A DNA stretch of 23,223 nucleotides from a virus. Where the stretch lies: positions 1-23,223 of the IMG/VR virus record IMGVR_UViG_3300020408_000040; one strand, 5' to 3'. Positions 3,173 through 20,095 of the stretch are shown here, piece by piece. Both the position numbers and the translations under genes were made by a program. The notes beneath the pieces are model-generated. The model had not been told where the DNA came from. It searched no databases and was given only the letters and a program-made list of their open reading frames with translations. Every line of letters begins with the position of its first letter. Positions within the stretch are counted from its first letter, which is position 1.

Positions 3173-4099
3173 CTACGGTGTAGTCACAATTAAATTGCCA
3201 GATGCGTTAATAGAAAATGTCATACCTAACGATGCGTATTGTACATCGTCATAGTCGCTCTGAGTGAATGCTTCAGAACCACCAGCGGTAGTAACATCTA
3301 CCAAAAGGCTAGCGCCATTAGTGCGAAAGCCGTAGAAACAAGCATTATTAACAGTCCCGGCATTTGCTGATATTGCTTGCTGCACCCGTAGGGGTGTCAT
3401 TCCTTTTGTGTTGTCTGTTCCTGTCGTTGCCTCTGTTTGAGATGCAATGGCAGAAAAAATTCCGTTAGACCCGGCTGGTCCAGTCGCTCCTGTCTGACCA
3501 TCAGGTATGCCTAATGTAAAAGTCAAATCTCCTGACGCTGGTGTAAATACAACAGAAGCTGTAGGGCTAGCCCCGGCTGATAAACTGCTTGCAGATGCGT
3601 TGGCGGTCAACACCCTGCCTGTAGTTGCTTCTGGTTCACCTGTCGAGGTAAAGCCTAATAATTTATCTGCTCTAGCTGCTGCTGTTGGAATAGTTGTAGA
3701 TAACGTAGCGTCATCAGACAGCGGAACCTTTAGAGCTTGGTCGGATGTACCAGAGTTGTCTTGTACAATCTGTGTTAATTTATCTAACGCACCTTCTAAA
3801 ACCTCTGGCTGTACGCCGCCTAAGTTTGCTAAGTCAACAAGCTGTGTTCTAGGTACGTTTCTTGTAAGTGTAATAAATTGTCCTGCCGCAGGTGCAGATG
3901 TAAACGTCACCGTGCCGCCTGTGGAATTACCCACACCAGATACAGAATAATCAGAAGACGGTACAGTAGTATCCACGCCAGCCGCACTAGTAAGTGTCAC
4001 TACTAGGTGGTCAGCGTCTTGTATCTGAAACGTATAATCAAAACTAGCTGGTCCAGAGTTATACGGTCCTGTCCTTGCGTTGGTTGTACTTATCGTCAT
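3173..4099 (-). CDS. Tail fibre, T7 gp17-like N-terminal anchor with short collagen-like segment
   Basis: This 308-residue protein opens with the fold-typical pattern of T7 gp17-like fibre anchors (residues 1-95: FDYTFQIQDADHLVVTLT, SDYSVSG, GQFITLTRNVPRTQLVDL), the part that attaches a fibre to the tail. A segment common in phage fibres follows (residues 110-160: LDKLTQIVQDNSG, ALKVPLSDDATLS, RADKLLGFTSTGEP). A short collagen-like GATGPAGSNG lies near 199-210, and TDNTKGMTPLRVQQAI comes before a beta-rich end. T7 gp17 has 553 residues, so this fibre is short and lacks a separate large tip, which the next gene probably supplies. CGGAG lies 9 bases before the ATG at 4099. The 52-base space upstream is the longest gap in the window. 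Confidence 0.85.
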   Translation of the reverse strand: MTISTTNARTGPYNSGPASFDYTFQIQDADHLVVTLTSAAGVDTTVPSSDYSVSGVGNSTGGTVTFTSAPAAGQFITLTRNVPRTQLVDLANLGGVQPEVLEGALDKLTQIVQDNSGTSDQALKVPLSDDATLSTTIPTAAARADKLLGFTSTGEPEATTGRVLTANASASSLSAGASPTASVVFTPASGDLTFTLGIPDGQTGATGPAGSNGIFSAIASQTEATTGTDNTKGMTPLRVQQAISANAGTVNNACFYGFRTNGASLLVDVTTAGGSEAFTQSDYDDVQYASLGMTFSINASGNLIVTTP

Positions 4100-4151: not shown

Positions 4152-7100
4152 TCACTCTACTCTTTTCTTTGCTTTATCCTTATTGTACCCAGTAATGAAA
4201 TCAAACCAGCTTGGCTTCAAATCTTCGTCCAAATCTTCGTCATTTTCCGCAATCCAAGCGCTTAGGGTACGGTTAATCTGGATAGCTCCGGGCAATCCTA
4301 AAATAGTTCCTAGCGTAGTAATTAGCGGTTTAATTCGTTGCAATTCTGGGTCATCTTCTGGGTCAGCTTCTGGGTCAGTAATGTATTCATATTTGTCGGT
4401 CAGGTAGTCAGCAGCCCGAATTAAGTTTTCCCCAAAACTTTCCACAGGTGACATAGAATACCCGTAGTCGCTAACAAACCCACCTACGATATCCCTAACA
4501 AAAGGCACTGTGCCGCCTAGTGTGTTTACTGTTCTTGTTATCAGCCAGTTTCCTACGGTGTTCTTTTTGTTGCCGTCCTCATCTTCTTCGTCAAAGTCAG
4601 GCACTTTATCGGTTAGCACTGCTTGAGCTGCTTCAGCAATAGTTATCAAAACAAATATTCTTGCTGCTGCTTTAGCTACAGTTAACGGCTTTTTAAGTCG
4701 AACCTCGCCAGTGATTTGTCTGGTTAGACCGTATAACAAAGCAAAGAAGCTGTAGAACATCGTGAATATTTTCATAATGCCAGCTCTACGCTGTACCTCA
4801 TTGAGGTCTTTCAAGCCACCTGCTGTCTGCGATATACGGACCACTCTGTCTGCATATTTAACTGCACCGTCTACGTTATTAGGCTCAGCTCGTAGCGCCC
4901 GGTTATAAGCTGCTATCCATGTCGGTATATCAACACCGTACATCTGTATGCCAGCAATTGCTAACATAGCCATTTCAGATACCCGGGCTTGGATACCTTG
5001 CTTTCCTTTAAATGTTCTTAATGCTGTTCTAACTTCACGGTCAGTACTTTCCAATCTGTTACGCATTTCACCAGAAAGGTCAAAAACCATTTTTCTAGTT
5101 TTTGGGTCAATAGCTTGTTTTACACCTAGCAAAACATCTTTGGTAACTACAGCAGCGCTAATAGGACCGTAAGTCGTGTCTGCCATCAGTCTGTCTATTG
5201 TAGCGGTATAACCAAGCAACTGAGCTGCCATGGTGCTGTAAGATAAACCTAGCACGGCTACTGTGACGTTGTTACGCACACCTAGCGCTAATGTTTCCCA
5301 TGCGTTAGTAGGCGGCTGGTTTTCATTGTTAGCTGCGATAGCACCTACCCAGTTTTGCAGCTCTCGTAGATATGCCGCCCCTACTTTTTCTGTAACTACA
5401 TCTACTATCTCTTGCGAGTTTAAAATCTTCTTGGCGTTTCTGACAGCTTCATAGTGCGTAATAAAATGCACCGGGCGGTCAAACACATTCATCAGCCGTT
5501 CTATTCTAAAATCGATAGGGGCAGCAAAAGCTTCGCTACGCTCTTTAGTCATAGAGCTGTTTAAAGATGCTTTTACAGTAGAAGACTGAAACGCTTGCAG
5601 CGCATCCATGTTGTCAATGTCTTCACCTTTTTTGCTGCGACTGCCGTCATACAGCATAGGAAAATAACCACCAGTCCATGTGCCATGCTGGTTAGTTATT
5701 TTTCTAGGTTCAATCTTTGCTGGTGACCTACCGTTTTCATTTCTATAAATCTGGTCAACCGCTGGGTATATCTCTTCAGATATATTCCAGATGTCTTGAA
5801 TAAGTTCCCACTCTTCTTTAGTCAGCGCCGATAAAGCTTTATCAATTAATTCCTCATTAATATTACGCCCGTATTCTCGCTCACCGTTAATTAACTTTTG
5901 CAGGTTACTTTCGTTACCTGTGTTTAAAGCCAGCATCAGTAAAGAACCACGGTCCCAAGTCTCTCCCGGTAGCGCCAGCTCTCCTACGTCAACACGCTTG
6001 CCCAGCTTCTTTCTTACGTCTTTAGGCAAGGCGTTAAGCTTAGCGTTAATCCTTGCGCTTATCTTACCCAGCATATCTTGTTCCGCTGCTGATGCGTCAG
6101 CAAACGGCTGGTATATAGTTTGATGCCAGATACCGTTAGGCTCGTTGTTATCCATCATTTCTAGCAACAGCTCTACTTTAAGCAGCGCTGCATCTAAGTA
6201 TGATAAACGTATCGCACCCTTATCCAGCAAGCTCTGGTCTGTTGTAGTAATGTTTTTCTTTCTAGCCTTTGTAGCTTTAGCTGTTGGGCGAGACTGTAGC
6301 TTAGATACTAGCTGTGCAATAACAGTAGCTCTGTCCCGGCGTTCCTGACCGATTAGCAGTTTTTTCTTTAGCCGTCCTTGTTTTACAATTGTCTCTACTG
6401 AATTATATAAATCCTCAAAATCAGCGACTGACAAATCGTTAAAATTCTTTACTCGGTCAGCTTCTGCTAAGACGGCTGGGTACTCAAAAATAGCCCCGTC
6501 ATTCTCTTCAGCCGCTGCCATCCACTTAGCTAGCGCTTGCAGCTCTAATTTAGCTCTACGCTTTTCAGACATTTTTGGTCCTAGACTATACAAGTCTAGT
6601 ATGCTTCGGACCCTGTCCATATAGTCAGCGTCTACGTTAGGAAATTTTTTCCTATCACCTTTGTATTTAACTAACGTAGTTCTTTGTTTAGCAATTTGCT
6701 TTTGTAATCGAATGGCTTCTTTTGCCATTTCATAATTTACTAGCTGCTGAAACTTATGTTTATAAGCTGCTATCTTATCGCCTTTGCGTAATGCTTTCCC
6801 GGCTTCCCTAGCGTGTTTCTTTTCTGCTGCTAGAAACTTACTAGGATTAATGTCACGCACTGTTTTTGCTAATAGGCGCTGCTTTGCCATAGCCTTAATA
6901 AACTTAATTTTAAAAGCTGGCTCAGAGGTGCGTAATGCGTCTAGCTCTGCTTGCAGCACCTCAGACCGTAAATCTGTTTCGTGTACGCTAGCAATAGCCT
7001 CAGACGTTGCCCCTTCTTCTACTACAGGACCGTCATCCAACAGCGCAGCGGATAGCTGTTGATTTACCCCCTGCTCAAACGGAACAAACGTGTTTAAAGA

Positions 7101-10100
7101 GTTCATCATCTCTTCAAAAGTCTGGAAACCAAAATAGTTAGCAACAGCTCCCGGCGATACAGTGTCCTTGCCTGTACCGTAAATAACAGACGTACCTATC
7201 TTAGGTAGCTTAGCCAGTCCGTCTTCGCCAATTAGTTCTACCAGCAGTTTTTTATTAATCTTGCCTACGTCTAACTCTACTTTTTGTCCTAATGCATCTG
7301 TGCCTTTAGTTAGACCGTACATTAGTTTGTATATAGGCTTTTGGTTTAGCTCTGTTTCAACACCGGGTCTCAGCTCTTCTGCCTTAGCGTCACGCTCTTC
7401 TAACTGACCCTGCTCAATATCTTTTAGTTTCTTAGAAACGTGTTTCGCTTTTGCTTGTGCTTTTGCTCGGTCTACTTTCTGTCGATATTCGTTGTATTCT
7501 TTCTGGGTCATACCAGCTTCTTGAGCTGTAGCAAACATAGCTGATAGTTTGTATTGGTCTTGCATGGTGGCTATCTCATTATCAGTAGCCAGCATACGGT
7601 CCATAACTGCTTTGACCTCTAGACTGTATTCTACGTCCAGTCCGTTATAGCCACCCATTCTTTTGATAGCTCTGTAGACGCTGGTCATCCATGCTGCAAA
7701 TCTTGTAAAAGCATCTAGCAGTGTAAATGACGGTGCTTCGCCTTTCTGTAAATAATTTTCAAAACCTCTAGCAAACTGCTCATGCATAGCAATTGCTACA
7801 TACCTAGTTGTGCTGTCACCTCGCAGGTCATTGCTCATTATAAAGCGCTTGAGCTGGTTCTCTGACATACTCTGTATTTTTGCAGCAGCTTCTTTGTTCT
7901 TATCTTTGTTGGCTCGTTTTACTGCCTCTTCTCTAATTTCGTTTGTGCGGCTAGCCCACCACCGTTTCACTGTGGTCCAGTCTTTGTCTAATCTACCGCC
8001 AAACTCTGACGCATCTTCTTTGAGCTGCTCCAACCAAAAGTGTCCAGCCTCATGTAGAAATGTACTACGGTCTGCACTTTCAAAAATTTGAATTAGTGTT
8101 ACTGGCTTACCGTTCTGGTCTATAATTTGGTCTTTTGGTGTAAACGTACCACCAGTGTTTGTTTCTCTAGTCTGTTCTAGTGTCAGTCCCTCAGACCCCG
8201 GCAACTGGCTTAGCGTAGTGTCTACGGCTGGCTCACCTGTCGTTACATACTGTAGCGGCAGCAGGTCTACTTTCTGGTCAGCAAAAGGTCGTTCAGCTAA
8301 TGGCTTGCCCTGAGCTTCCGGGTTAAAATTTACCCAGCTATTCTGTCCTCTGGTTTCAGATGTTAATGCCCACCTAGCCCACGGACTTTTAGTCATCAGC
8401 ATATGGTTACGCCACGCAGCTTCTTCCCCTAATGGTCCGAAACCTACCGTACTCATTGTATGAGCAAAGTAGTCGTGTACAGCTCGTAGCAGGTCGTTAT
8501 ACAGCAACGGCACACCGTTCATATCAACACGCCCACTGTCACGCAATAACGGGTGGTCTTCGTACACTACGCCCGGTGGACCAAACTGGTCAGGTATTGT
8601 CTGGAATATAAACAGGTGATTGTTTGCGTTTACATCATTACGCATTTGCTCAGACATTTTCTTGCCTGAGTACGGTTCGCCTTTACCTGTAAAAATTTCT
8701 ACTTTGATGGGTAGCGTGTCAAACTGCTCTAGCAGCTCTACGCTTAATTCTTCGTATGCCCGTCTGACATCCGGGTTGTCTAAATTATTTAAGCCTAGCT
8801 CGTTGTAGGCTTCCATAATTTCTGTTTGAGTATCTATCTGGTCTTGCGTCAGCTCACCAGCTTGCTCAGTAGGTGTCACGGTTCGCTTAGCTAACCGTGA
8901 CGCTAACCTTATTGCTGATTTGTTTGCTTCGTCTGTTTTCGGGGAACGAAATTCACCTTTGACTTCCCGGTAGCTATTTGTGGCTCCGTATCCACTACCG
9001 TAAGCCCATAGGCGCTCAACCGTTCTGGTAACCTGTTGTGCATTGCTTCCAATAAGCTCTGCGGCTCTTCCGATTGCGGTGTCAAATTCTTCGATTGCTT
9101 TTGCGTCATTTGGGTCTCCTAAGTAATACGCAAGCAGACTGCCGTCCTCACCTACGGTGAAGCCGACTAGACCACTTTCGTCTATTATTTTTGTCAGCTC
9201 TTGTTCACTGAGCTGCTCTTTCATTTTGAAAGTTACCACAGATGTATTAAAACTTCCATCAGTATATTGATAACCTACTCTTTTTTTATTTTTAGAGGGT
9301 TTTTCTCTAACGTGAAACTGCTCTTGGTTAAACATTTCTGCAAACCTAACCAAGGCAGCTAAAGCTCTTGCCCGGTCTTCATTTCGCATTTCTATTTCTA
9401 AGGCAAGAGACGGCTCAGCTTCCCCACCATAAAATCCATAGCTAGGTACTTTGTTTATGGTGAGGGCTGGCTTCTTCTTTTTACCCGTGCCTGTCATTAT
9501 ATTTTGCGTATGATAGACTAAGGCGTTGTACGCTATTTCTTGTAGCGCAACAAAAGCGTCCCGGTCTCCGTTGACTGCCGCTTTGTGTAAATTATCTAAA
9601 CCCGGTATTGTCCCGGTAGCTGCTGATAATCCTATTCGTATTTTACCTGTTTCTGCTTCCCATTTTCTTTGCTTACGCAGCGCTATTAATCTTTTAGCGG
9701 TACGCTTTAGATGGTCTACGTCAGTCTTACTCATGCCGTTAAGCACGTCACCTTTTTCAGTAGACCTACCTGTAAACTCTTGTCTAGGCTGGCTCAGTTC
9801 TTGTAGTTGTGATTGATACCCACCTTCTTTTAGTACCCGTTGATAAATCCCTGTATTTAGCAACGTGCTAAAATCAGGAACGTCACCTATCATTTCATGT
9901 GTTAGGTCACCGTCTTCTAATATCTGTAGCTCTGTTCTAGTCTCGCCTTTAGCGCTAGCTTTTTCATACAAAGCTTTTGCCATAGACCAGATAGTCTCTT
10001 GTACTTCCATAGGGTCCATGTTGGCTTCAATAGCAGCTCTGCGTGTCAACACGCTCATAGCCATGTAACCGGGGCTTTTCCCGGGACGCACTGTACCTGC

Positions 10101-13100
10101 TTGGCTAAATATTTGCTGGTCTACAAAAGCCCAGTTTGCCATCCATGCATCGTTAGTAACCTCATTATCAAACCCGACAAGGTTTAGGTAAAATGAATTT
10201 ACTTTAGGACCAGATAACGTAATCGCATCGTCTGGCGTAGTCAGCGCTATAAGGCTGTTGTTTACCCACGCCTTTAGTACGCTAGCATCACCTTTGTCAC
10301 CTTGGACGTTTGCACCCATTATTTTTTTAATAGACGGTATGTCTGTTGGTCTGCCAGCCGCTACCCATGCAGTCCACACTTGCAGCGCATTTTGTAAATT
10401 ACTTTCTACGCTAGTTTGTGGTGACAGCGCAGCTAGCAGCGCAGTAAATCTTGGTGCGTCTTCTTTAAAGACAACATCCAAAGCTGCTTTGCTTCGTCTA
10501 TACCAACCTAGTTTTGCTCTACCAGCTCTAGCGCTAGCAGCAGTCTCTTGTATGCTAGGTAGCTGCTTGTAAAGAGTAACCAGCTTTTTTGCTGATTGTA
10601 TTGTTAATAATTCAATTTCATCTGGCTGCAAAAATTTTGCAATAGTGGCGAACCCCGGCACTTCTTTTCTGAAACGGGCTAAATTCTTTTTACCTTTTGC
10701 AGAAAGAGTTTGGTCGGGAGGAAAGACCGCCGGGGTTCCCTTGCTTCCAATCTCAGGATTATTCTGGTCTACTTGGAATTTTTGTTCTGCTTCGTCTTGG
10801 GCTGCATTATTAAGCTGCGTGATAATTTCTTGGTCGGTCCAGTTCTCAAACAGGATGCCGTTCTTGCTCATGTCCTGCTGGATTTGTCTGCGTCTTTTAG
10901 TACGCAGCGCTACGCTGCCATCATCTTCAAATCTGTTTTTCAGTTCGATAGGTGTATCTACTAAAATAACCCCGGTATCTTTAGCAGTGTTTTTTAGATT
11001 GCCATTTACACCTGCTGTTATATTTAGCGTAGACATATCTACAGGCACTGAGTTTTCGTGCCGTGGCTTATACGTCAGATTAATAGAATTGTGATAACCC
11101 TCGTTTACCCCAGTCTCATCATTAGGCGCTGTAATAGTGTCAGGCGCTGTGTCAGTAGTCTGGATAGGATTGTAATACATAATTCTAGGAATTGATTTGG
11201 TAGCCACACCTACGGCGTTAGCAGTAGGGTCAGAGACTGTTACATCAATTGTCTGACTAGACGCAGCTTCTAAACCCGTCTCTGTAGCCTCTGTGGGTGC
11301 TGTTGTACCCTGCTGGTTAGCTTCTAGCTCTCTTAGCTCTGCTACGGTCCCTAAGTCCTCTGACGTATATACAGGTGCAGCATTAGATGTTCTTTGCACC
11401 TCTGTAGGAGTTTGGTTGCCAGCTATAATTAAATTATCTTCATTAAACATACTAAGAGGGCTGACATAACTGCCAGTCTCTTCAGAAGCTCTGGCTGCTC
11501 TGACTGCATATCGTTTTGCTGTTAACAACGCCAGCAGCTCAGCTTGCTTAGTATCAAAATTACCTGTGCGGATAATTTGTTCTTTTACGTTTTGTGCTAT
11601 CTGTTCTGTTTCTTGTACAGAGGCGGCTACCTCTGTTTCATTCATAGACGCAAGCTGGTCACCGTTGTCTACAGCGTCAATCATATCCTGTAGGTCTTGC
11701 TGCTCGTTTTCAGACATCTCTTCTAACTCAGCCCCGGTAATACCATCAGGCGAGGTAGATGATGATTTATTATGCAGCTCCATAAACCCGTCAACACCAA
11801 GTATGTGCCGCACATAAGCGTCTGTGTTTACCTCAATCTTCTGTCCAGCGGTAGCAGCTTCGTTTACCTCGTTCTGGTCTAAGCCCAGCGATTTAATTAC
11901 GCTGTCAGCGTCTGGTCTGTCTTGGTCAAATTGTTTAAGGTCGCTGGCTTCTATATATACTTTTTCTACGCCTTTCTCTTTTAGGTCTTCAGCAATTACT
12001 GTAGAGCTATCAATCAGGCTCTGACCTTCTGTGCTTAGTTTTGATTTTTGTTTTTCAATAATTTCGCCAGTCTTTAACCAGCCTTGTATTGCTTGTTTTT
12101 GTTTTCTGCGTCCGTTCCATGTCCCGGTAGCAGTAGCAATATCCAGCGGCGTAGTAATAGCGCCACCTGCTACCTCTAGAACCACTTCGTTCCAATCTAC
12201 TTTTCCTGTGGAAAACTTTTGCGCTAACGCTTCGCCAGTACCTTCAGCAGTTAAGCTTGTGCCTACTTGGGCTGCCGTATTTAGCCCGATACTTTTACCA
12301 GAAAATTTAGATATAAGACCAAACTGAACCAGTTGGGTCATACTAATAGTAGCGCCTCTAATTCTGCCTACGCTGATAGCGTAGTCCATTGCTTCCGGGC
12401 TGTTGATAAACTGTTGAAAACCTTCTTCGGTAACTAAATCAAAACCGTATTTTTTCTGTACTGCGTTAGCTACCTCGCTGCCTACGCTACTTTCAGATAT
12501 AAATGTACCACCAGCAGCCAGTGAAGTTCCTAGCAATGGGTTTTTAGTTACAATAGTAGCTAGCGCTGACGTACCGATAACAGGCGCAAATTCTATACCT
12601 ACCTCTGATAGAAAAGCGCTAGCTCCTACCGGGTCTTTTATAACAGCGTCTAAAAAATCGCTTGTAGCTTCTACTAAGCTAGCGTCCGGGTTGTTCTTTA
12701 ATAGTTTCTGAAATTCTTGAGCTTGTGTTGAAAACTGTGCGTTTTTTCTATCTTCCCGGGCAATGATTGCAGCTTTTTCAAACAGCTTATACGAGCTGTC
12801 TAGTAACTGCGTTTTTTGTAACTCAGGGTCAGCGTCTGCTTCTGTTCCAAATATCAGCTCACCTATCCATGTGTTCAATGTTATTCTTGGCAAACTGTCT
12901 ATTAAAGAGCTTATACCAGCGCTTTCTAAAATACTTGGTGTGCCGTATGGACCGCCATAATTTCCGTATCGCTCCAGCCGCATCATTTCTTCTAGAGCTT
13001 TGTCTAAATCGGCTTTGTTGTTTGGGTCTAAGCCCATAGCTTTAGCCATGGCTTTTAATGTGCTGTCTTCGTAAAAATTCTTTTCTAGTGTTTCTGTAAT

Positions 13101-13784
13101 ACTCAGTTCAGCTTCTTCAGCCAGCCTAGCTTTCAGTCCAGCAGCAATACTGTATAGACCGCCTTCTATTCTTCCAAAGCCTCTATCCAAAGCGTTAAGC
13201 GTTCCTTCGCCATAACTTATAACGCTTTCGCCTGTGTTCAGCCCGGGTATCGCAGCTAGCTGGTTTTCCAAAGAAGCTAGTGTGTTGATGTTGCTGCTCT
13301 GCGTAGTTAGCAGCTCTGGTTTGTTAGTTAGTGTGTCTGTCAGCACAGGCGCATTGTTAAGGTCTTCTACAACATTGTACCGTTCCATTTGTGCTTTTAA
13401 AATTTTAGGGTCAACAGTCAATAAGACATCTCTAGGTACACCCAATACTTTTTCTGCTTTAGTGTATAAAGCTTCCATTTCCGGGTTAGGTAATACGTCA
13501 GCGTTGTCCGTCAACACGTTCACACTGTTGCTAACAGTGTCTACTTTTTCGTTAACTGGCTTAGCTGTTATAAATGTCTGGTCATTGCTACCCAGCTCAG
13601 GACTACCTATGGTGCTAGTGTTTGTGACAGCATCCGCTTTGGTGTCCGTGCCAATCATGTCAGGTACATTAAGTACGCCGTCTGCTTCCGTAAGTGCAGA
13701 GTTATCAATTTGCACAGCGTCTTTTTTATCGCCTAGCAAGCTACCTTCTTCTTTGTTTTGAAATATAGAAGAAACTGTTCCCAT
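4152..13784 (-). CDS. Giant polyvalent ejection protein (T7 gp16 position) with zincin motif
   Basis: This single uninterrupted frame of 3,210 residues compares with 1,318 for T7 gp16. Visible in order: a Thr/Asn/Asp-rich N terminus; a hydrophobic Gly/Ala-rich stretch (390-428); a region typical of large phage polyvalent proteins (607-680, VYIEASDLKQF, IEVNTDAYVRHILG); a helix-hairpin-helix glycosylase-like segment (about 1060-1260, LSPQTSVESN at 1120, SGPKVNSFYLNL at 1191, candidate Asp1212); a conserved block (about 1740-1830, HDYFAH at 1770, ETRGQNSW at 1810); a zincin-like metallopeptidase domain (HEAGH 1911-1915, then MHEQFARGFENYL with Glu2002 and Glu2009); Lys/Arg-rich helices (about 2200-2600); WTGGYFPMLYD near 2700; and hydrophobic segments near 2840, 2940, 3005 and 3040. 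I found no lytic transglycosylase motif. The start ATG overlaps the upstream stop as TAATG. Ejection into the host is inferred from gene order; protease and DNA-repair-like activities are inferred from motifs. Confidence 0.88.
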   Translation of the reverse strand: MGTVSSIFQNKEEGSLLGDKKDAVQIDNSALTEADGVLNVPDMIGTDTKADAVTNTSTIGSPELGSNDQTFITAKPVNEKVDTVSNSVNVLTDNADVLPNPEMEALYTKAEKVLGVPRDVLLTVDPKILKAQMERYNVVEDLNNAPVLTDTLTNKPELLTTQSSNINTLASLENQLAAIPGLNTGESVISYGEGTLNALDRGFGRIEGGLYSIAAGLKARLAEEAELSITETLEKNFYEDSTLKAMAKAMGLDPNNKADLDKALEEMMRLERYGNYGGPYGTPSILESAGISSLIDSLPRITLNTWIGELIFGTEADADPELQKTQLLDSSYKLFEKAAIIAREDRKNAQFSTQAQEFQKLLKNNPDASLVEATSDFLDAVIKDPVGASAFLSEVGIEFAPVIGTSALATIVTKNPLLGTSLAAGGTFISESSVGSEVANAVQKKYGFDLVTEEGFQQFINSPEAMDYAISVGRIRGATISMTQLVQFGLISKFSGKSIGLNTAAQVGTSLTAEGTGEALAQKFSTGKVDWNEVVLEVAGGAITTPLDIATATGTWNGRRKQKQAIQGWLKTGEIIEKQKSKLSTEGQSLIDSSTVIAEDLKEKGVEKVYIEASDLKQFDQDRPDADSVIKSLGLDQNEVNEAATAGQKIEVNTDAYVRHILGVDGFMELHNKSSSTSPDGITGAELEEMSENEQQDLQDMIDAVDNGDQLASMNETEVAASVQETEQIAQNVKEQIIRTGNFDTKQAELLALLTAKRYAVRAARASEETGSYVSPLSMFNEDNLIIAGNQTPTEVQRTSNAAPVYTSEDLGTVAELRELEANQQGTTAPTEATETGLEAASSQTIDVTVSDPTANAVGVATKSIPRIMYYNPIQTTDTAPDTITAPNDETGVNEGYHNSINLTYKPRHENSVPVDMSTLNITAGVNGNLKNTAKDTGVILVDTPIELKNRFEDDGSVALRTKRRRQIQQDMSKNGILFENWTDQEIITQLNNAAQDEAEQKFQVDQNNPEIGSKGTPAVFPPDQTLSAKGKKNLARFRKEVPGFATIAKFLQPDEIELLTIQSAKKLVTLYKQLPSIQETAASARAGRAKLGWYRRSKAALDVVFKEDAPRFTALLAALSPQTSVESNLQNALQVWTAWVAAGRPTDIPSIKKIMGANVQGDKGDASVLKAWVNNSLIALTTPDDAITLSGPKVNSFYLNLVGFDNEVTNDAWMANWAFVDQQIFSQAGTVRPGKSPGYMAMSVLTRRAAIEANMDPMEVQETIWSMAKALYEKASAKGETRTELQILEDGDLTHEMIGDVPDFSTLLNTGIYQRVLKEGGYQSQLQELSQPRQEFTGRSTEKGDVLNGMSKTDVDHLKRTAKRLIALRKQRKWEAETGKIRIGLSAATGTIPGLDNLHKAAVNGDRDAFVALQEIAYNALVYHTQNIMTGTGKKKKPALTINKVPSYGFYGGEAEPSLALEIEMRNEDRARALAALVRFAEMFNQEQFHVREKPSKNKKRVGYQYTDGSFNTSVVTFKMKEQLSEQELTKIIDESGLVGFTVGEDGSLLAYYLGDPNDAKAIEEFDTAIGRAAELIGSNAQQVTRTVERLWAYGSGYGATNSYREVKGEFRSPKTDEANKSAIRLASRLAKRTVTPTEQAGELTQDQIDTQTEIMEAYNELGLNNLDNPDVRRAYEELSVELLEQFDTLPIKVEIFTGKGEPYSGKKMSEQMRNDVNANNHLFIFQTIPDQFGPPGVVYEDHPLLRDSGRVDMNGVPLLYNDLLRAVHDYFAHTMSTVGFGPLGEEAAWRNHMLMTKSPWARWALTSETRGQNSWVNFNPEAQGKPLAERPFADQKVDLLPLQYVTTGEPAVDTTLSQLPGSEGLTLEQTRETNTGGTFTPKDQIIDQNGKPVTLIQIFESADRSTFLHEAGHFWLEQLKEDASEFGGRLDKDWTTVKRWWASRTNEIREEAVKRANKDKNKEAAAKIQSMSENQLKRFIMSNDLRGDSTTRYVAIAMHEQFARGFENYLQKGEAPSFTLLDAFTRFAAWMTSVYRAIKRMGGYNGLDVEYSLEVKAVMDRMLATDNEIATMQDQYKLSAMFATAQEAGMTQKEYNEYRQKVDRAKAQAKAKHVSKKLKDIEQGQLEERDAKAEELRPGVETELNQKPIYKLMYGLTKGTDALGQKVELDVGKINKKLLVELIGEDGLAKLPKIGTSVIYGTGKDTVSPGAVANYFGFQTFEEMMNSLNTFVPFEQGVNQQLSAALLDDGPVVEEGATSEAIASVHETDLRSEVLQAELDALRTSEPAFKIKFIKAMAKQRLLAKTVRDINPSKFLAAEKKHAREAGKALRKGDKIAAYKHKFQQLVNYEMAKEAIRLQKQIAKQRTTLVKYKGDRKKFPNVDADYMDRVRSILDLYSLGPKMSEKRRAKLELQALAKWMAAAEENDGAIFEYPAVLAEADRVKNFNDLSVADFEDLYNSVETIVKQGRLKKKLLIGQERRDRATVIAQLVSKLQSRPTAKATKARKKNITTTDQSLLDKGAIRLSYLDAALLKVELLLEMMDNNEPNGIWHQTIYQPFADASAAEQDMLGKISARINAKLNALPKDVRKKLGKRVDVGELALPGETWDRGSLLMLALNTGNESNLQKLINGEREYGRNINEELIDKALSALTKEEWELIQDIWNISEEIYPAVDQIYRNENGRSPAKIEPRKITNQHGTWTGGYFPMLYDGSRSKKGEDIDNMDALQAFQSSTVKASLNSSMTKERSEAFAAPIDFRIERLMNVFDRPVHFITHYEAVRNAKKILNSQEIVDVVTEKVGAAYLRELQNWVGAIAANNENQPPTNAWETLALGVRNNVTVAVLGLSYSTMAAQLLGYTATIDRLMADTTYGPISAAVVTKDVLLGVKQAIDPKTRKMVFDLSGEMRNRLESTDREVRTALRTFKGKQGIQARVSEMAMLAIAGIQMYGVDIPTWIAAYNRALRAEPNNVDGAVKYADRVVRISQTAGGLKDLNEVQRRAGIMKIFTMFYSFFALLYGLTRQITGEVRLKKPLTVAKAAARIFVLITIAEAAQAVLTDKVPDFDEEDEDGNKKNTVGNWLITRTVNTLGGTVPFVRDIVGGFVSDYGYSMSPVESFGENLIRAADYLTDKYEYITDPEADPEDDPELQRIKPLITTLGTILGLPGAIQINRTLSAWIAENDEDLDEDLKPSWFDFITGYNKDKAKKRVE

Positions 13785-16321
13785 TAATCTTCATCCTCAG
13801 TGGTAGGCAATTTTAATTCAGCAGCGTACCCTGTGTTGTATTTTTCACCTCTAAGGTAACTATAATCAAGATTACTAAAAAGCGTATTTCCTGTTACTAT
13901 ATTACCCAGCAAAGTATCTACTAAGGCTTTATTGTTAGGGTTTGTAAGCGCAGCATTAACTGTTTTCATGTATTCTTTGTAAGCAACAGAGCCTTGCTTG
14001 TTTCCGCTAGGCATACCGTTTAATACATCGTCAGTAATCCTTGGTAGCTGACCCCCAGCAGTTAAACGCTCTATTATGTACAAAGCACCTTTGACCTGAG
14101 TAGCTGGGTTTACACCGGGATATAAAGCTTTAATACCGCTTTGCTCAACAAGCGTAAGCAGCCCACTGTCTGTGTTACCAAACCCTACCGCTAGGTTGTA
14201 AGTGTTTTCACTCATAACAGCGAGAGGGTTTATGTTGGCATCTGTTTGACTTCCCGGGACACTACGCAAAGCTACATTTAAGTTAGCTAAGTTAACGGGT
14301 TTATTTTGGCTCTCTACCTTTTCGATAGCGCCTTCTATCCCTGCTCTAGTTGTACCTAAAACCATAGCCAGTACGTTTTTACTTCTGTCGTTAGAGGTGT
14401 TTACAAGTTGTGTGTCAATTGTGGTTGCCAACTCCATGTCACTTTTATCAGACATATAACCAAGTTCATTGGAACCGATTTCTGTCCCAATAAGGGGTAC
14501 TTTAGGGGCTGGTTTTGTAATTGTGCGAATAACATACGGTGCTAAGAATTTTTTAATAGTAGCGCTGTCCGGGGCTACACCGTTTTTCTTTGCATATCTT
14601 ACATAAAAAGCGTCTAACTCTGCCCTGATTATAGGGCTGTTATGAATTTGAGTTCTTAGAATATCGCTGGTTATGTTCATTTCATCTTTTAAAATTTTTT
14701 CTATTTTTGGAAACTGAATGCCTGATTTTTCCAAAGTTGCTTTTTCTATTTTAGCTTGTTTCTCTGCAATCTTTGCGGAAACTTTTTCGTAAGCTTTGGC
14801 GCTAAGAACAGACCGCAGCGCTTGGTCGTTTTCGTCTGAACCAGAAAAATTGGCAATTACAAAAGCAGCTCCGCTATCGCTTTCTAACATACCTAACAGC
14901 ACTTGGTCATACGCTTTTCCATTAGCTGTAACCAGCGTTGTGGCAGCGCCACCGTTTTGCTGATGAACAGACATATCTGTTGTGGTCTCTACGTTACCAG
15001 ACGCAGATGATATCCGTGCCGACACGTTGTAGTTAGCTGGTAGTCTAGCTAACAGCTCAGGCGGCGGTGTTTTGTTTTCTGATATGAGCTTGTTAAATTC
15101 TCTAATAGCCTCTCGCTCATCTACAGCCACTCGTTCTTGGTTTATTTTTGCTAGACCAGCAATGTATGAGTTTGCTGCTTTAAGCATCTCTGGGTTTTTA
15201 CCAGCGTATTTTTTTCTAACTTCTTCATACAAACCAGCAATGTCATATAATTGTATCTGACCACCAGCTACACTAGTCATATATTTTTTGTCAGTACCAC
15301 CGCCGTCAGCGGTTTGTACAGTTTCATTCAGCAATTCATTAACAAAGTTTTGACCACCTGCAATATCGCCATTCTTTTTGACCAGCTCTGTTAGCGTTGT
15401 AAGTTTTTCGCCTCGCAACACCGCCTTGCCTGTAGGGTTAGCAGAGCTTCTATAATCATCTAAAAGTTTTTGTGCAGTAGCTGTGTCACCAACAGCCATG
15501 GCTTGTTTAATAGCACCTTCTACAACTAGTGCTTGGTTTTCTTGTACAAGCTGGTCCTTTATTGCAGGGTCAGTAACGCCTTTCTGAGAAGCTATACCAA
15601 TATCTTTATCTAGCACTAATGATTTTACATTATCTAGCGTAGCGCCTAGCGCAGTAGGATTGTTAAATTGAAGAGACCCTACCTCTTGGTAGTCGGTCAT
15701 CTTGCCTGTAAACAGTAACTCGTTTTTAGCTTTATAAGCTACGTCTTGAACCTTGTTTACGTTGTTAACAAAAGCGCTTGTAGTTTTATTAATATATTCC
15801 TCAGCAGAGGACGTACCCACACCACCCATATCCTTTGTGTGTTGTTCTCTAAGTGCTTTTATATTTGCTTCATAATTTGCAGTTAGGCTTTTGCTGTCAT
15901 CATAAGTAAAACCAGCATCCTCAAACTCTTTCCGTGCGATAGCGTACTTAGTTGCTACGATTGCACCTTGAGGGTTTTGCTCGTCCATTTCCCGGGACCA
16001 GCCACCATTTATTCGTTTTAATGCGTCATCCCCTGTTAATGTGCTTACACCGCCAAAGTCTGGGTCTTCTAATAAATATGACTGAAGCTTAGTTATTTTA
16101 CCTTCCAGCGTAACCAGCTCACGCTTGTCGTTACCCGTTTGCCATTTAGTAGCTGCATCAGCAACACCATCTAATGCTTTCACCCAGATGTCTCTTTGCT
16201 GTCGTGTCCCGGCATCAACGTCCACTTGAGGCACGTTCATAAAGTTAGTTTGCCCGTCAGACATATTTACGCTCTGATAAGCTTTAGCTCCTTGATTTCT
16301 TGGTGTTGGTATTCTTGCCAT
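13784..16321 (-). CDS. Internal virion / ejection protein, T7 gp15-like position
   Basis: The protein has 845 residues from the ATG at 16321. An in-frame GTG at 16333 would add four residues, but the ATG overlaps the upstream stop (TAATG) and has GGTGG 5 bases before it, so I chose the ATG. The N terminus (MARIPTPRNQGAKAYQSVN) is the loose, Pro- and Gln-containing lead common in phage core proteins. Most of the chain is helical and hydrophilic, with repeat-like units such as IKQAMAVGDTATAQKLLDDY near residue 280 and coiled-coil stretches near 540-560. No catalytic motif or membrane span stands out. T7 gp15 (747 residues) joins gp16 in a tube that crosses the periplasm, and the size and order here fit that role. 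The assignment rests on synteny more than on recognisable sequence. Confidence 0.83.
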   Translation of the reverse strand: MARIPTPRNQGAKAYQSVNMSDGQTNFMNVPQVDVDAGTRQQRDIWVKALDGVADAATKWQTGNDKRELVTLEGKITKLQSYLLEDPDFGGVSTLTGDDALKRINGGWSREMDEQNPQGAIVATKYAIARKEFEDAGFTYDDSKSLTANYEANIKALREQHTKDMGGVGTSSAEEYINKTTSAFVNNVNKVQDVAYKAKNELLFTGKMTDYQEVGSLQFNNPTALGATLDNVKSLVLDKDIGIASQKGVTDPAIKDQLVQENQALVVEGAIKQAMAVGDTATAQKLLDDYRSSANPTGKAVLRGEKLTTLTELVKKNGDIAGGQNFVNELLNETVQTADGGGTDKKYMTSVAGGQIQLYDIAGLYEEVRKKYAGKNPEMLKAANSYIAGLAKINQERVAVDEREAIREFNKLISENKTPPPELLARLPANYNVSARISSASGNVETTTDMSVHQQNGGAATTLVTANGKAYDQVLLGMLESDSGAAFVIANFSGSDENDQALRSVLSAKAYEKVSAKIAEKQAKIEKATLEKSGIQFPKIEKILKDEMNITSDILRTQIHNSPIIRAELDAFYVRYAKKNGVAPDSATIKKFLAPYVIRTITKPAPKVPLIGTEIGSNELGYMSDKSDMELATTIDTQLVNTSNDRSKNVLAMVLGTTRAGIEGAIEKVESQNKPVNLANLNVALRSVPGSQTDANINPLAVMSENTYNLAVGFGNTDSGLLTLVEQSGIKALYPGVNPATQVKGALYIIERLTAGGQLPRITDDVLNGMPSGNKQGSVAYKEYMKTVNAALTNPNNKALVDTLLGNIVTGNTLFSNLDYSYLRGEKYNTGYAAELKLPTTEDED

Positions 16322-16836
16322 TATTTCCACCACTTCGCATTTTGTCCGGCGCTATAAATATCACCAGATGCACCTAACAATGTTCCAGCAGCAGCCATGC
16401 CCGGGTTATAGCTGCTTGCTTTAGCAGAAAATAAATCTGCTTTTGCTTGATATTCCATGCCTTGTATTTTTGCGTTTCTAATTTCGTTTTCTTTAGTGTC
16501 TCGTATTTTTAAAATGTCGTATGCACCTTCAGCATTTGCGTCAGCTAACAAGCCCTGCACGGTGCTGTCTTGTGTGTCATCTACAAGTAAACCAGAACCA
16601 GCGGCGCTTGCTCTAATAGCGCCTTTAAACTGGCTAGTCCTACGCCTTTGGTCAGCTTCTGCTTCGTCTGCTTGTTGTTTAATTCTAATTTGATTATGTT
16701 GTGCAATAATTACATTATTACGAGCAATAGCAGCCTGATAGTTCGCCTGTTGCTTAGCAGCTTTTTGTTGCTGATAAGATGAATAGGCGCTAAGCCCTGC
16801 GCTAGCTACTGTAGCTACTGCTGCCGTAAATGCCAT
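16321..16836 (-). CDS. Internal virion protein, T7 gp14-like
   Basis: The 171-residue protein begins with an Ala-rich amphipathic or membrane-active helix (MAFTAAVATVASAGLSAYSS). A Gln/Ala-rich coiled coil follows (residues 20-70: QQQKAAKQQANYQAAIARNN, RIKQQADEAEADQRRR), then ASAAGSGLLVDDTQDSTVQG and a Gly/Ala-rich end (PGMAAAGTLLGASGDIYSAG). This layout matches the small core proteins of T7-like phages that insert into the outer membrane during ejection. T7 gp14 has 196 residues. Its ATG overlaps the upstream stop (TAATG), with AAAGGGG 7 bases before it, and its own stop overlaps the next start. Family membership is well supported by the domain pattern; the outer-membrane role is taken from T7. 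Confidence 0.85.
   Translation of the reverse strand: MAFTAAVATVASAGLSAYSSYQQQKAAKQQANYQAAIARNNVIIAQHNQIRIKQQADEAEADQRRRTSQFKGAIRASAAGSGLLVDDTQDSTVQGLLADANAEGAYDILKIRDTKENEIRNAKIQGMEYQAKADLFSAKASSYNPGMAAAGTLLGASGDIYSAGQNAKWWK
16327..16331 (-). promoter_or_regulatory. Ribosome binding site deciding the start of the gp15-like gene
   Basis: The minus strand reads GGTGG 5 bases before the ATG at 16321. It overlaps the alternative in-frame GTG at 16333, which makes that earlier start unlikely. Confidence 0.5.
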
Positions 16837-17288
16837 TAGCTAACCCCTTTCGCATATACTCGTTCAATAGGGGTATAGCCTAAGCGCTCAAATATTTTGC
16901 CTACGTCTTTATGCAGCTTGACCTTGTTAAAGATTTTCTGCACACCCCGTGCTTTTAAAAATTCTTCTGACCGTTTAAGTAATTTAAATCCTGTTAGACC
17001 TTTTCTATGGTCTGGGTGAAGCCAAAATACGTCTCCATCAGCTACTGACAATTGCTTATAATGAAGCGCTTGTGTCAGGATAAATATAGCGTAGCCCACT
17101 AATTTAGAACCATGACGAGCTGTAGTAACGTGCATCTTATCTGCGTCTGCCAACACCTCGTATGTAGCCCAATCAGGTTGTAAATCTATCTTGCTTTTAT
17201 CTAAAGCAATCTCTTCCCAATGCTTCAAAAGTAATGGTCCTACTTCTACTACAAAATCTTTAAAATTTTCTTCTTGTATTGTTATCAT
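16836..17288 (-). CDS. GNAT-fold internal core protein, T7 gp13-like position
   Basis: The 150-residue protein shows a GNAT acyltransferase layout: a helical N terminus (PLLLKHWEEIALDK), a strand with KLVGYAIFIL (residues 62-71), the motif A region WLHPDHRKGLTGFKLLKR (89-106) and a C-terminal FERLGYTPIERVYAKG. The usual acetyl-CoA loop (Q/R-x-x-G-x-G/A) is degenerate here (HRKGLTG), so catalysis is uncertain. Proteins of this kind fill the gp13 slot in many T7-like phages, where they help assemble the internal core and are lost at ejection. The ATG at 17288 overlaps the upstream stop as TGATG and has GGGAGG 6 bases before it; a TTG at 17291 is less likely. Its stop overlaps the next start as TAATG. 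The fold call is fairly firm; enzymatic activity is open. Confidence 0.82.
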   Translation of the reverse strand: MITIQEENFKDFVVEVGPLLLKHWEEIALDKSKIDLQPDWATYEVLADADKMHVTTARHGSKLVGYAIFILTQALHYKQLSVADGDVFWLHPDHRKGLTGFKLLKRSEEFLKARGVQKIFNKVKLHKDVGKIFERLGYTPIERVYAKGVS

Positions 17289-20095
17289 CAATTTCCTCCC
17301 GGTACTACATCAGGAATAATTGAGAGAACAGTTAGTGGCAACGGGTCTCGTTGCTGTATGATTACTCGCCCGTCTTTATTCCATGACGGTGATAGTGTTA
17401 AGTCTTTATCGCCTTGCAGCATTTCTAGCGGCTGTCCGTACAGCGCTGGCATACCAAACTTGGCTTCTTTTAGATGGTCTCTGTCTGGTCCTGTAAACAT
17501 CCCCAGACTACGTTCAGCTCGTACAGTGAGCCTACCAATCTTTTTTGCTGCGCCTTGAATAGCGCTTGCCCCTTCTTGACCTGCTACATTTAATCGCAGG
17601 GTCTCTAATTCTGAAATGTAATTGATGCCGACATGAACCCGGCTAGCTGGTGTAGTTAGTGTAATGCTGCCGTTAGACACTGTAGTAGGCGGTATAACAT
17701 ACCCGTTAGCTACGCCTGTTATTTCTTCGCCTTCTAAATGCCACAATCCTGACAGCGTGGTTACAGCTTCCCTAACTGTGCCGCCGTTGTGATACTTTGC
17801 AAACTTTGTACCGTCTACGTTAGCACCATTAAGTTGAAGCTCAAAAGTAGTACTAGTAATATTATTAACAGTATAGCCGTTTCCCCTAACCTCATCTGAT
17901 AACGAAAACCCCGCTGTCGTTGTGCTGTCGTGTTTGTATACATCCCAAATATCAACAGTGTCACCATTGGTTAATCCATGTGCTGATGCTGTAGTAACTA
18001 CAACAGGGTTAGCTTGAGTGTACCCAGTAATCGTAATAGGGTTATCTAAGCTAGCCCCTGCGTCTACAAAAAACCCATCTTGTATAGTTTTAAAATCTCT
18101 TTCTTTCATACGCTCAATATAGCGTAACGTCTTACCATCAATAACTCGTTCCACTAGACAATATGTAGCGTCAATATCGTTTTCTTTTACAGAAGCTACA
18201 GACTTAAATTTTCCTTTTGTCGTGTGCCTATGCCAAGCAAAAACTTCCTGCTCTCGCAGATACGTCAACCCCAGCATCATCCCGTCATCACGCACACACC
18301 ACACAATAGAGTAAGGCGCTGGTGCATAGGTCCAGTCATCTATACGGTTATAATCTAGCAAGTGCCTAGCTAAGATGGATACGTCATTACCACTATAGCT
18401 ATCCACCTCGTATCGATAACCTAAGTCTCTGACGTTTTGTCCCGGCTGCATAAAGAGAGCAACGTCACCAGAGAGCAGCGGCGGTAAAGTGGTAGAGCCA
18501 AAAAATGACTGTGGTGTAATTTGTATTCCAGAAGGTGTAATCACATTGTCAATACCTTCTACCAGCCACTCGCCCCCTGATGTTAATACCACTAAGTCCG
18601 ACATAGGGACCAAGTGTCTAATCTCGTTAACCTTCGTGCTTGCAATTGTTGCAATGATAGCGTCATCGTCTCTAGCTGGTGACGATGTAGCAAAGTTATT
18701 TTGGTTACCTGTTTGCGTCATAAACAAACGCTGTGGATGTTTGTTGCTGTTTGCAAATACTCTACGCTGCTGAAAATAAGCTACAGCAGACGGATATTCG
18801 TTTGTTGCAGCAAACGGGTCTCTAGTCTTAGGCGGTGTATCGTCTAAGTCAGGAGCCATGTTTTCATCTGTAAATGTAGTGTCTTCGGTACGTCCTATAA
18901 AACCGTAAATACCATTCTTCTCACGGTAAATATTATACGTTTGTGCTTGAGCTACAGAGGTCCAGTTTATTGTATTATCAATCGTGCTGTTACCGTTGGT
19001 AATTTTTATAAAGCCAACGAGCAAAGAACCACCAGAGCCATAACCTGTGTAGCCAGAGCTATCGACTGAATTATAGTTAACGTCTTCTAATTCGATAGTA
19101 GTGCTTGTAACTGTGCCAGCTCTAAAACGTCTGTCGTTCAGCTCAACCATACCTGTAATATTTTCTAAATGAAAAGTATCGCCTGTCGATAATCCATGAG
19201 CTGCTGTAGTTGTTAAGATAGCCGGGTTAGCTTGTGTAACAAACTGCACACTAAACGTACCTGCTGTCCCGGTTAGGCTTTCTTCTGACGTATCGGCGTT
19301 AACAGCAGTTACGGCATACTTGTGGGTCTCTGACCCTGTAGTGTTTGCTGTAACAGTGACGCTTCTAGGAAAAGCTTGCGCTGGAGCAAAAGTAATATCT
19401 GCTAACGTCCATGCATCGTGGTCCGTTCTAAATATTTCTTTTGGTGGGTAAAGAGGGTGGACAACCGTCATCGTGTCGGCTGACTGCACATAATTTAATT
19501 CGTATAGTTCTGTTTGTGGATATGGTGTAGTTAGCTCAAACACTTTTGATACTGTGCCACCAGAGGTGTAGGTCGTAAAGTTTGTGCTGTTTATGGTTGC
19601 TGTTGTACTGTGTTCTAATTCTTTAATAGAAAAAGTGGTAGTTGTTAAAACAGTAACTTGAAACGTCCTGTTGTTAAGCTCTGTCATACCGCCAATGTTT
19701 TGCAAGTATACGCTGTCACCTGTAGTAAGCCCATGCGTAGCAGATGTAGTTATGACGGCTGGGTTAGCCTTAGTAATAGCAGATATGTTTTTTACTGATG
19801 CGCTTTCTAATACCTGTCCCCCATCTTTAAAGACACGCATATAATAATCGCCAAATTCTAGGATGTAGGTCTGCTCTGTATTAAAAGCAAAAGGAATAAG
19901 ACGTACAGTTTTAGTGCTATCTTTTACCTGTCCTATAAACTGTAATCCTGACCGTGTCGCAACACCACCATGCACCTGTACAAAAAAGTTCTCACATTTA
20001 GCCAGTGAGCTTTTGTACTTGCTGATGTCTACTCTAGCTCCTATTGCTTCGGATACTTCACCCCCGGCTAAGCTAGACTGAATTACTTTTGTCAT
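17288..20095 (-). CDS. Tail tubular protein B / nozzle, T7 gp12-like, with three FCCH-like repeats
   Basis: The 935-residue protein starts like the nozzle proteins of T7-like tails (SSLAGGEVSEAIGARVDISK, FVQVHGGVATRSGLQFIG, RLIPFAFNTEQTYILEFGDY). The family's central part follows (YPSAVAYFQQRRVFANSNKH, DDAIIATIASTKVNEIRHL, LVVLTSGGEWLVEG). T7 gp12 has 794 residues; the excess is explained by three inserted beta repeats starting at residues 110, 289 and 695 (ANPAVITTSATHGLTTGD and relatives). Repeats of this type are matched in domain databases by the FCCH domain of ubiquitin-activating enzyme E1, as I recall; in phages they are probably surface beta-barrels. The protein should form the distal tail tube and, with tube protein A, hold the fibres. 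The ATG lies 12 bases after the preceding stop. The assignment is firm. Confidence 0.92.
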   Translation of the reverse strand: MTKVIQSSLAGGEVSEAIGARVDISKYKSSLAKCENFFVQVHGGVATRSGLQFIGQVKDSTKTVRLIPFAFNTEQTYILEFGDYYMRVFKDGGQVLESASVKNISAITKANPAVITTSATHGLTTGDSVYLQNIGGMTELNNRTFQVTVLTTTTFSIKELEHSTTATINSTNFTTYTSGGTVSKVFELTTPYPQTELYELNYVQSADTMTVVHPLYPPKEIFRTDHDAWTLADITFAPAQAFPRSVTVTANTTGSETHKYAVTAVNADTSEESLTGTAGTFSVQFVTQANPAILTTTAAHGLSTGDTFHLENITGMVELNDRRFRAGTVTSTTIELEDVNYNSVDSSGYTGYGSGGSLLVGFIKITNGNSTIDNTINWTSVAQAQTYNIYREKNGIYGFIGRTEDTTFTDENMAPDLDDTPPKTRDPFAATNEYPSAVAYFQQRRVFANSNKHPQRLFMTQTGNQNNFATSSPARDDDAIIATIASTKVNEIRHLVPMSDLVVLTSGGEWLVEGIDNVITPSGIQITPQSFFGSTTLPPLLSGDVALFMQPGQNVRDLGYRYEVDSYSGNDVSILARHLLDYNRIDDWTYAPAPYSIVWCVRDDGMMLGLTYLREQEVFAWHRHTTKGKFKSVASVKENDIDATYCLVERVIDGKTLRYIERMKERDFKTIQDGFFVDAGASLDNPITITGYTQANPVVVTTASAHGLTNGDTVDIWDVYKHDSTTTAGFSLSDEVRGNGYTVNNITSTTFELQLNGANVDGTKFAKYHNGGTVREAVTTLSGLWHLEGEEITGVANGYVIPPTTVSNGSITLTTPASRVHVGINYISELETLRLNVAGQEGASAIQGAAKKIGRLTVRAERSLGMFTGPDRDHLKEAKFGMPALYGQPLEMLQGDKDLTLSPSWNKDGRVIIQQRDPLPLTVLSIIPDVVPGGN
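17295..17300 (-). promoter_or_regulatory. Ribosome binding site of the GNAT-like gene
   Basis: The minus strand reads GGGAGG 6 bases before the ATG at 17288, inside the end of the tail tube B gene. It supports ATG rather than the TTG one codon earlier. Confidence 0.7.
17831..18013 (-). repeat. FCCH-like protein repeat 3 in the nozzle gene
   Basis: This encodes residues 695-755 (ANPVVVTTASAHGLTNGD ... GNGYTVNNITSTTFELQL). The core matches copies 1 and 2, but a ten-residue insertion replaces the GGMTELN turn. Confidence 0.75.
19079..19231 (-). repeat. FCCH-like protein repeat 2 in the nozzle gene
   Basis: This encodes residues 289-339 (ANPAILTTTAAHGLSTGD ... TGMVELNDRRFRAGT). It has the same length as copy 1 and roughly half of the residues are identical by eye. 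Confidence 0.8.
19616..19768 (-). repeat. FCCH-like protein repeat 1 in the nozzle gene
   Basis: This encodes residues 110-160 (ANPAVITTSATHGLTTGD ... GGMTELNNRTFQVTV). It is the most canonical copy and closely parallels copy 2 at the protein level. Confidence 0.8.

Follow-up and report, generated by a model that had tools for sequence, protein, structure and literature searches.

A stretch of 23,223 nucleotides of virus DNA (IMG/VR record IMGVR_UViG_3300020408_000040, positions 1 to 23,223; hereafter the window) gives 9,633 bases, or 41% of its length, to a single gene that stands where phage T7 has its internal protein gp16. What is so large a protein for, and how much of it is machinery and how much cargo? 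A preliminary description, made from the letters alone, had read it as a string of modules typical of large polyvalent proteins and sent into the recipient with the DNA. Our results indicate that this reading was largely right in kind, with its certainty overstated. We consider it likely that the gene encodes the large ejection protein, internal to the virion, of a marine podovirus of the BPP-1 type, in which a fixed chassis holds a single slot of swappable enzyme domains.

The giant gene and its neighbours

The reading frame is uninterrupted (Table 1), and the plus strand over the same positions is riddled with stops. The preliminary description, which had one gene of 3,210 residues filling more than 40% of the window, was right about the frame, its extent and its share of the DNA, with the strand to be given as minus, like that of all main genes of the window. 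The frame is not a chance one, because it is kept in three other marine virus contigs (100%, 95% and ~75% amino acid identity, with a C-terminal query) and because all of its parts, including the cargo domains, are under purifying selection (dN/dS 0.03-0.22 overall where computable; 0.03-0.18 when compared with the 95%-identical relative and 0.10-0.22 with the one after it). The closest contig with the gene, G001 (42,781 bp), is a near-identical genome; no near-identical DNA was found among annotated phages.

Table 1. Features of the window, in order of position (res, residues of the giant protein)
Feature	Position	Strand	Basis
RCC1-repeat (beta-propeller) protein	1073-3145	-	tail-fibre-like N-terminal match, weak chitin-binding-like match
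Tail fibre, gp17-like N-terminus	3173..4099	-	phrog_1640, 1e-28
Giant ejection-type protein gene, Bbp10 family	4152..13784	-	uninterrupted ORF, 3,210 codons, 3,210 aa
C-core of Bbp10 family, res 2066-3130	4395..7589	-	phrog_9880, 2.9e-248
Zincin-like metallopeptidase, res 1876-2065	7590..8159	-	HEAGH at 1911, HEQFARGFE at 2001
Cargo D2b, phage-specific enzyme-like domain, res 1623-1862	8199..8918	-	phrog_3170
Cargo D2a, tandem ferredoxin-like domain, possible SAM lyase, res 1341-1622	8919..9764	-	AF2 model, VIA
Cargo D1, DUF7178, Ogg2-like HhH-GPD DNA glycosylase/AP lyase fold (predicted), res 1035-1340	9765..10682	-	Pfam, 3e-12
Linker opening the cargo slot, res 833-1034	10683..11288	-	48% identity to nearest relatives
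N-core, family-wide, res 100-832	11289..13487	-	held-out HMM, E=1.1e-36
N-terminal leader, poorly conserved, res 1-99	13488..13784	-	30% identity to L008 relative; outside N-core model
849-aa protein, muramidase position, directly before giant gene	13784..16333	-	gene order
T7 gp14-family internal virion protein	16321..16836	-	Pfam T7_gp14 2.9e-7, phrog_418 1.9e-18
GNAT-family protein, T7 gp13 position, between nozzle and gp14-like gene	16836..17291	-	profile matches
Tail nozzle, gp12-like	17288..20095	-	phrog_376, 2.3e-208

The genes run in the order protease (phrog_458), capsid, tail tube (gp11-like, phrog_394), nozzle, GNAT-family protein, gp14-family protein, 849-residue protein, giant protein, tail fibre and RCC1-repeat protein, which is also the order in BPP-1, Pseudomonas phage AF and Cobetia phage Carin1. 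The series by which we recognise members (capsid, tail, gp14-like gene, gene in the muramidase position, giant gene, tail fibre) is present in the window, and the ejection-protein position first proposed for the gene is borne out: the gp11-like, gp12-like, gp13-position and gp14-family genes and the 849-residue gene precede it, and the tail fibre follows. The RCC1-repeat protein probably serves in receptor binding. The rest of the near-identical genome encodes DNA polymerase A, PrimPol, an SNF2 helicase, a holin and an M15 peptidase, with a weak terminase match. Also in that genome are a stand-alone ArdC-N plus MPTase-PolyVal protein (L019:7755-8654), a kind of antirestriction protein that conjugative elements typically carry, and, close to the portal gene, a further GNAT gene (L021:6325-6810, minus strand).

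The C-terminal part of the giant protein, from about residue 1880 to 3130, shares 25-29% identity with the Bbp10, AF and Carin1 proteins, and in most of the best matches the homology extends over more than 1,200 residues. Scans of virus contigs returned more than 570 relatives of the C-core and those of bacterial genome records 51, several relatives being annotated as lysin or lysis protein. The zincin is conserved in 11 phages; of 139 C-core ORFs, every one keeps the HExxH (at 1911 in the window protein) and 109 also show the HE-FA--FE pattern downstream. Zincins of the CLCA_X group were reported earlier from this region, with residues 700-1000 of Bbp10 as seed (PMC3650047), and polyvalent proteins have a zincin as their hub domain (PMC5512222). 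Because the 113 complete non-redundant members, all but a few of which have the N-core and the zincin-opened C-core, range from 1,871 to 4,254 residues, a length of 3,210 is long but ordinary. To judge from this homology, the giant protein is a long Bbp10-family member from a BPP-1-like podovirus.

Other searches with the chain were empty. Solved structures searched at the sequence level with the whole protein, D1, D2a, D2b and the cargo alignment gave nothing significant, the sole match being spurious and confined to a short segment of a designed protein; NCBIfam and PADLOC profiles gave zero matches to the giant protein; and a T7-like RNA polymerase domain, as in the N4 virion RNA polymerase, had no Pfam match in the chain at E<=1. 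The chain also lacks a transglycosylase by Pfam and NCBIfam profiles, in agreement with the absence of a visible motif reported at the outset, and a diverged copy in the N-core is possible. This absence is no special feature: since most relatives tested carry an SLT domain in the gene that precedes the giant one (five of the seven scanned, namely BPP-1, Carin1, AF, CP2 and Jess A), a giant chain without a transglycosylase is normal for the family. One of the other two has GH108 in the preceding gene and Vibrio phage 1.021 has neither. It is the window's own 849-residue protein that is less usual, as a profile scan found in it no SLT and no recognisable domain; among 110 genes preceding giant ORFs, relatives of this protein occur only in one close relative.

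Chassis and cargo slot

The N-core was defined by iterative search and has 115 members with a readable start. A held-out HMM, from which the window and its near relatives were excluded, recovers the N-core of the window protein (Table 1), with no match in 200 shuffled copies. In 111 complete members, N-core and C-core lie from about 0 to 2,280 residues apart (median 370), the length of this intervening slot correlates with total length at 0.989, and total length minus slot is 1952 +/- 76 residues. The chassis of the window protein, at ~2,170 residues, is ~2.9 SD above the family mean because its N-core match is longer. Nearly all of the length variation in the family sits in this one slot between two conserved ends. 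In the window protein the slot opens with a linker that is the least conserved segment apart from the leader. About 60% of the giant chain is conserved chassis, present also in phages with little or no cargo, so that the description of the chain as a string of polyvalent modules stands for the zincin MPTase, of polyvalent/CLCA_X type, and for the curated domains in the slots of relatives, but not for the chain at large.

The contents of the 50 longest non-redundant slots, read by profile, were ART-PolyVal (23/50), PBECR5 RNase (11/50), DUF7178 (11/50), GNAT (4/50), LPD23 (3/50) and GGDEF (2/50), with single cases of LPD1, LPD3, LPD5, MuF_C, RadC, DUF6782 and S-AdoMet_lyase. This is the repertoire described for polyvalent proteins. 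The window protein itself has only DUF7178 by Pfam, with MPTase-PolyVal, ART-PolyVal, LPD and PBECR absent; its MPTase is recognised through its family, and the LPD families that the preliminary description had proposed to search for are found in the slots of relatives (LPD1, 3, 5 and 23) but not in its own. Two members of ~4,000-4,250 residues (L253 and L032) have slots of 2,000-2,280 residues, that of L253 with ART-PolyVal and PBECR5 RNase. Another relative, L194, has at its slot start, just upstream of its D1, an S-AdoMet lyase-like segment (~5629-5820; 2.2e-7, below the curated cut-off).

Domains of the cargo

An AF2 model of residues 1035-1862, built from 109 sequences, reached a pLDDT of 95.6 and a pTM of 0.88; Foldseek alone, run with this model against the PDB, returned no significant match. 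Structure prediction was one of the checks first proposed; the best matches for D1 were to Ogg2, and D2b had no matching fold. D1 and D2b are mobile: a giant ORF may have both or only one of them, their order varies, and the core may be present or absent. Among ORFs with either, D1 comes first in 30, D2b comes first in 13 and the rest have only one (some duplicate loci are counted), and about half of the ORFs above 1,500 residues that carry D1 or D2b lack the C-core.

In D1, a stretch resembling a helix-hairpin-helix (LSGPKVNSF...VTNDAW) had been spotted in the sequence before modelling. The top four structural matches of the predicted model in VIA were all Ogg2 (3n0u, 3knt, 3fhg and 3fhf; Z 10.2-10.6, rmsd 3.4-3.8, 175-181 of 206-214 residues), followed by AGOG (Z 8.1) and OGG1 (Z near 7). 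Furthermore, K1194 and D1212 are identical in all 50 non-redundant D1 sequences, and the spacing K-x2-S-x6-G-x7-D, with 18 residues from K to D, is the same as in the Mj and Tm Ogg2. By its model, D1 has an HhH-GPD fold with the catalytic Lys and Asp at Ogg2 spacing, and it would act on DNA as a putative glycosylase/AP lyase. Because the Ogg2 family model PF22175 finds no match in two related virus genomes, the link is a structural one and not one at the sequence level. Ogg2 needs the carboxylate of its C-terminal lysine to recognise 8-oxoG, and when that lysine is missing only lyase activity remains (PMC3397491). D1 is internal to the chain, which makes such a lysine impossible; we therefore call it Ogg2-like rather than Ogg2, and its substrate may differ from that of Ogg2.

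D2b has at least 570 confirmed matches in virus contigs; giant phage proteins of unrelated kinds also contain it, and in a mycobacteriophage it forms a protein on its own. Sixteen of its columns are invariant across 88 sequences, D1717, N1763, R1767, H1770, D1771, H1775, H1794, E1810, Q1837 and K1838 being invariant residues and E1787 kept in 99%. The motifs HDYFAH, GEE-AW--H and ETRGQNSW suggest a metal-dependent enzyme. Modelled alone, D2b reached a pLDDT of 95.8, and VIA gave no row at Z 2 or more; going by its model, the domain looks enzyme-like, with a fold unmatched among the structures compared. We considered the aromatic amino acid hydroxylases, enzymes with a 2-His-1-Glu site, which share an HDxFGH motif with it and fill many of the top Foldseek rows at an insignificant E of about 1-7. 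Motif and Foldseek rank agree, but VIA was empty and hhalign aligned six residues only, so that we keep this identity as no more than a lead.

Nearly every ORF that contains D2a has D2b immediately after it. In VIA D2a matches RND porter domains with Z up to 8.1, which we took as the common ferredoxin-like arrangement and not as an identity, and phage SAM lyases with Z 6.7-6.9 over 124 of 151 residues, a score tied with many ferredoxin-like folds. The Pfam family most often touched by D2a members is S-AdoMet_lyase (PF23780), reached by 5 of 25 (best 0.0056, below the curated cut-off) and not by the window protein. hhalign of D2a against the SAM lyase profile scored 15.3, the shuffled maximum being 16.4, and in the alignment obtained E68 of T3 was not aligned with the invariant E1457 of D2a. 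We treat the SAM lyase identity of this modelled domain as a tentative lead, unlikely rather than likely to be right.

Function and alternatives

Gene order and the gp14-type neighbours lead us to infer that the giant protein is located in the virion and ejected. We found no report of it in virions of relatives, and the Carin1 record labels capsid and tail proteins, not gp32, as "structurally identified". The chassis, made of the N-core and of the zincin with the C-core, would presumably travel inside the capsid and leave it along with the DNA, and would then form or cross a conduit through the envelope; this channel role is presumed from position and analogy. The slot between the two halves of the chassis would carry the enzyme domains as passengers, here the Ogg2-like glycosylase/AP lyase D1, the SAM-lyase candidate D2a and the His/Glu-rich, enzyme-like D2b, at least two of which look like enzymes. 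The adjacent zincin might free them, by analogy with what is proposed for polyvalent proteins, and the cargo would take effect as soon as infection starts, within minutes, with the DNA of the host or of the entering phage, and the metabolism of that DNA, as its target.

On what that action is, we are more guarded. It would be tempting to suppose that injected D1, with the SAM-lyase-like D2a and D2b, cuts particular bases out of the host's DNA, or out of DNA with defence modifications, as the phage enters, the slot being reloaded from phage to phage; in so specific a form we find this doubtful. The cargo might instead protect or repair the phage's own incoming DNA, with its oxidised bases and abasic sites, and not attack host defences. 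This is quite possible, though short of an even chance: D1 has the fold of 8-oxoG glycosylases and oxidised DNA in marine phages is plausible, but the ART, RNase and GNAT enzymes in other slots of the family are kinds that act on host molecules, and the lysine with which 8-oxoG is recognised cannot exist in an internal domain.

Two further explanations would dispense with delivered enzymes. The cargo could consist chiefly of modules that serve DNA packaging or the build of the ejection machine, with enzyme folds that have fallen out of catalytic use, as might be thought from its place inside a presumed virion protein and from the lack of an established activity for D2a and D2b. We consider this improbable, since even distant relatives keep the catalytic Lys and Asp of D1 and 16 columns of D2b without change, a number of members with almost no slot manage without cargo, known effector-type enzymes occupy the same slot in relatives, and D2b is also a stand-alone mycobacteriophage gene. 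Alternatively, the protein might be made late and act in the producing cell, in assembly or lysis, without ever being injected. The lysin and lysis annotations of relatives are consistent with this; nonetheless we regard it as very improbable, because the near-identical genome encodes a holin and an M15 peptidase elsewhere and because the gene lies within the block of internal virion proteins, beside the gp14 homologue. The chassis with a slot of passenger enzymes is the reading we retain.

Polyvalent proteins have so far been defined by lists of domains. With one homologous chassis and a single variable slot, readable across 111 phages and prophages, the question of what is cargo can be answered from sequence, and cargo with a function yet to be assigned can be picked out systematically via the slot. 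Moreover, Pfam DUF7178 is offered a testable function, and D2b, phage-specific and represented at least several hundred times among virus contigs, is singled out. We found no literature on DUF7178 or on glycosylases in polyvalent proteins, in a search that covered few of the subscription journals, and the text of PMC5512222 does not contain the word "glycosylase". As far as this search reached, the Ogg2-like identity of DUF7178 and the single-slot architecture are new.

Relation to known systems

The closest known proteins are Bbp10 and its homologues (AF gp16, Carin1 gp32, OANV1 gp16 and the protein of Nostoc phage Nsp-JY18, the last with 4,012 residues and annotated "lysin"), which share N-core, zincin, C-core and gene order with the window protein. 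Bbp10 of Bordetella phage BPP-1 has 2,052 residues, whereas the window protein has a slot of ~1,040 residues filled by D1, D2a and D2b; the Bbp10-type relatives tested mostly have SLT in the preceding gene, and that of the window has none detectable. The CLCA_X zincins correspond to the same zincin region, with HExxH and a downstream Glu, although the available part of that account (PMC3650047) treats the protease domain and not the rest of the chain. T7 gp16 has the same position in the gene order and is likewise a very large internal protein, but in the window chain no transglycosylase was detected and no PHROG match is named T7 gp16.

Among enzymes, the Ogg2 8-oxoguanine DNA glycosylase/AP lyases have in common with D1 the fold and the spacing of the catalytic Lys and Asp, and differ in the C-terminal Lys carboxylate used for 8-oxoG and in the absence of a match at the sequence level. 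For T3 SAMase and Svi3-3, 124 of 151 residues can be superposed on the model of D2a (Z 6.9) and D2a members touch PF23780, but the matches all fall below the curated cut-off, the profile score is no better than that of shuffles and the catalytic Glu has no clear counterpart.

The phage-type polyvalent proteins (Iyer et al. 2017, PMC5512222) share with the window protein a zincin MPTase hub, disparate enzyme-like domains and a phage structural context, one chain here holding a zincin, a predicted HhH-GPD fold, a predicted tandem ferredoxin-like fold and D2b. The window protein differs from them in being without an LPD match and in having its cargo limited to one slot of a homologous chassis. 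In a family whose members carry the curated domains, it appears from its sequence to work like a polyvalent protein.
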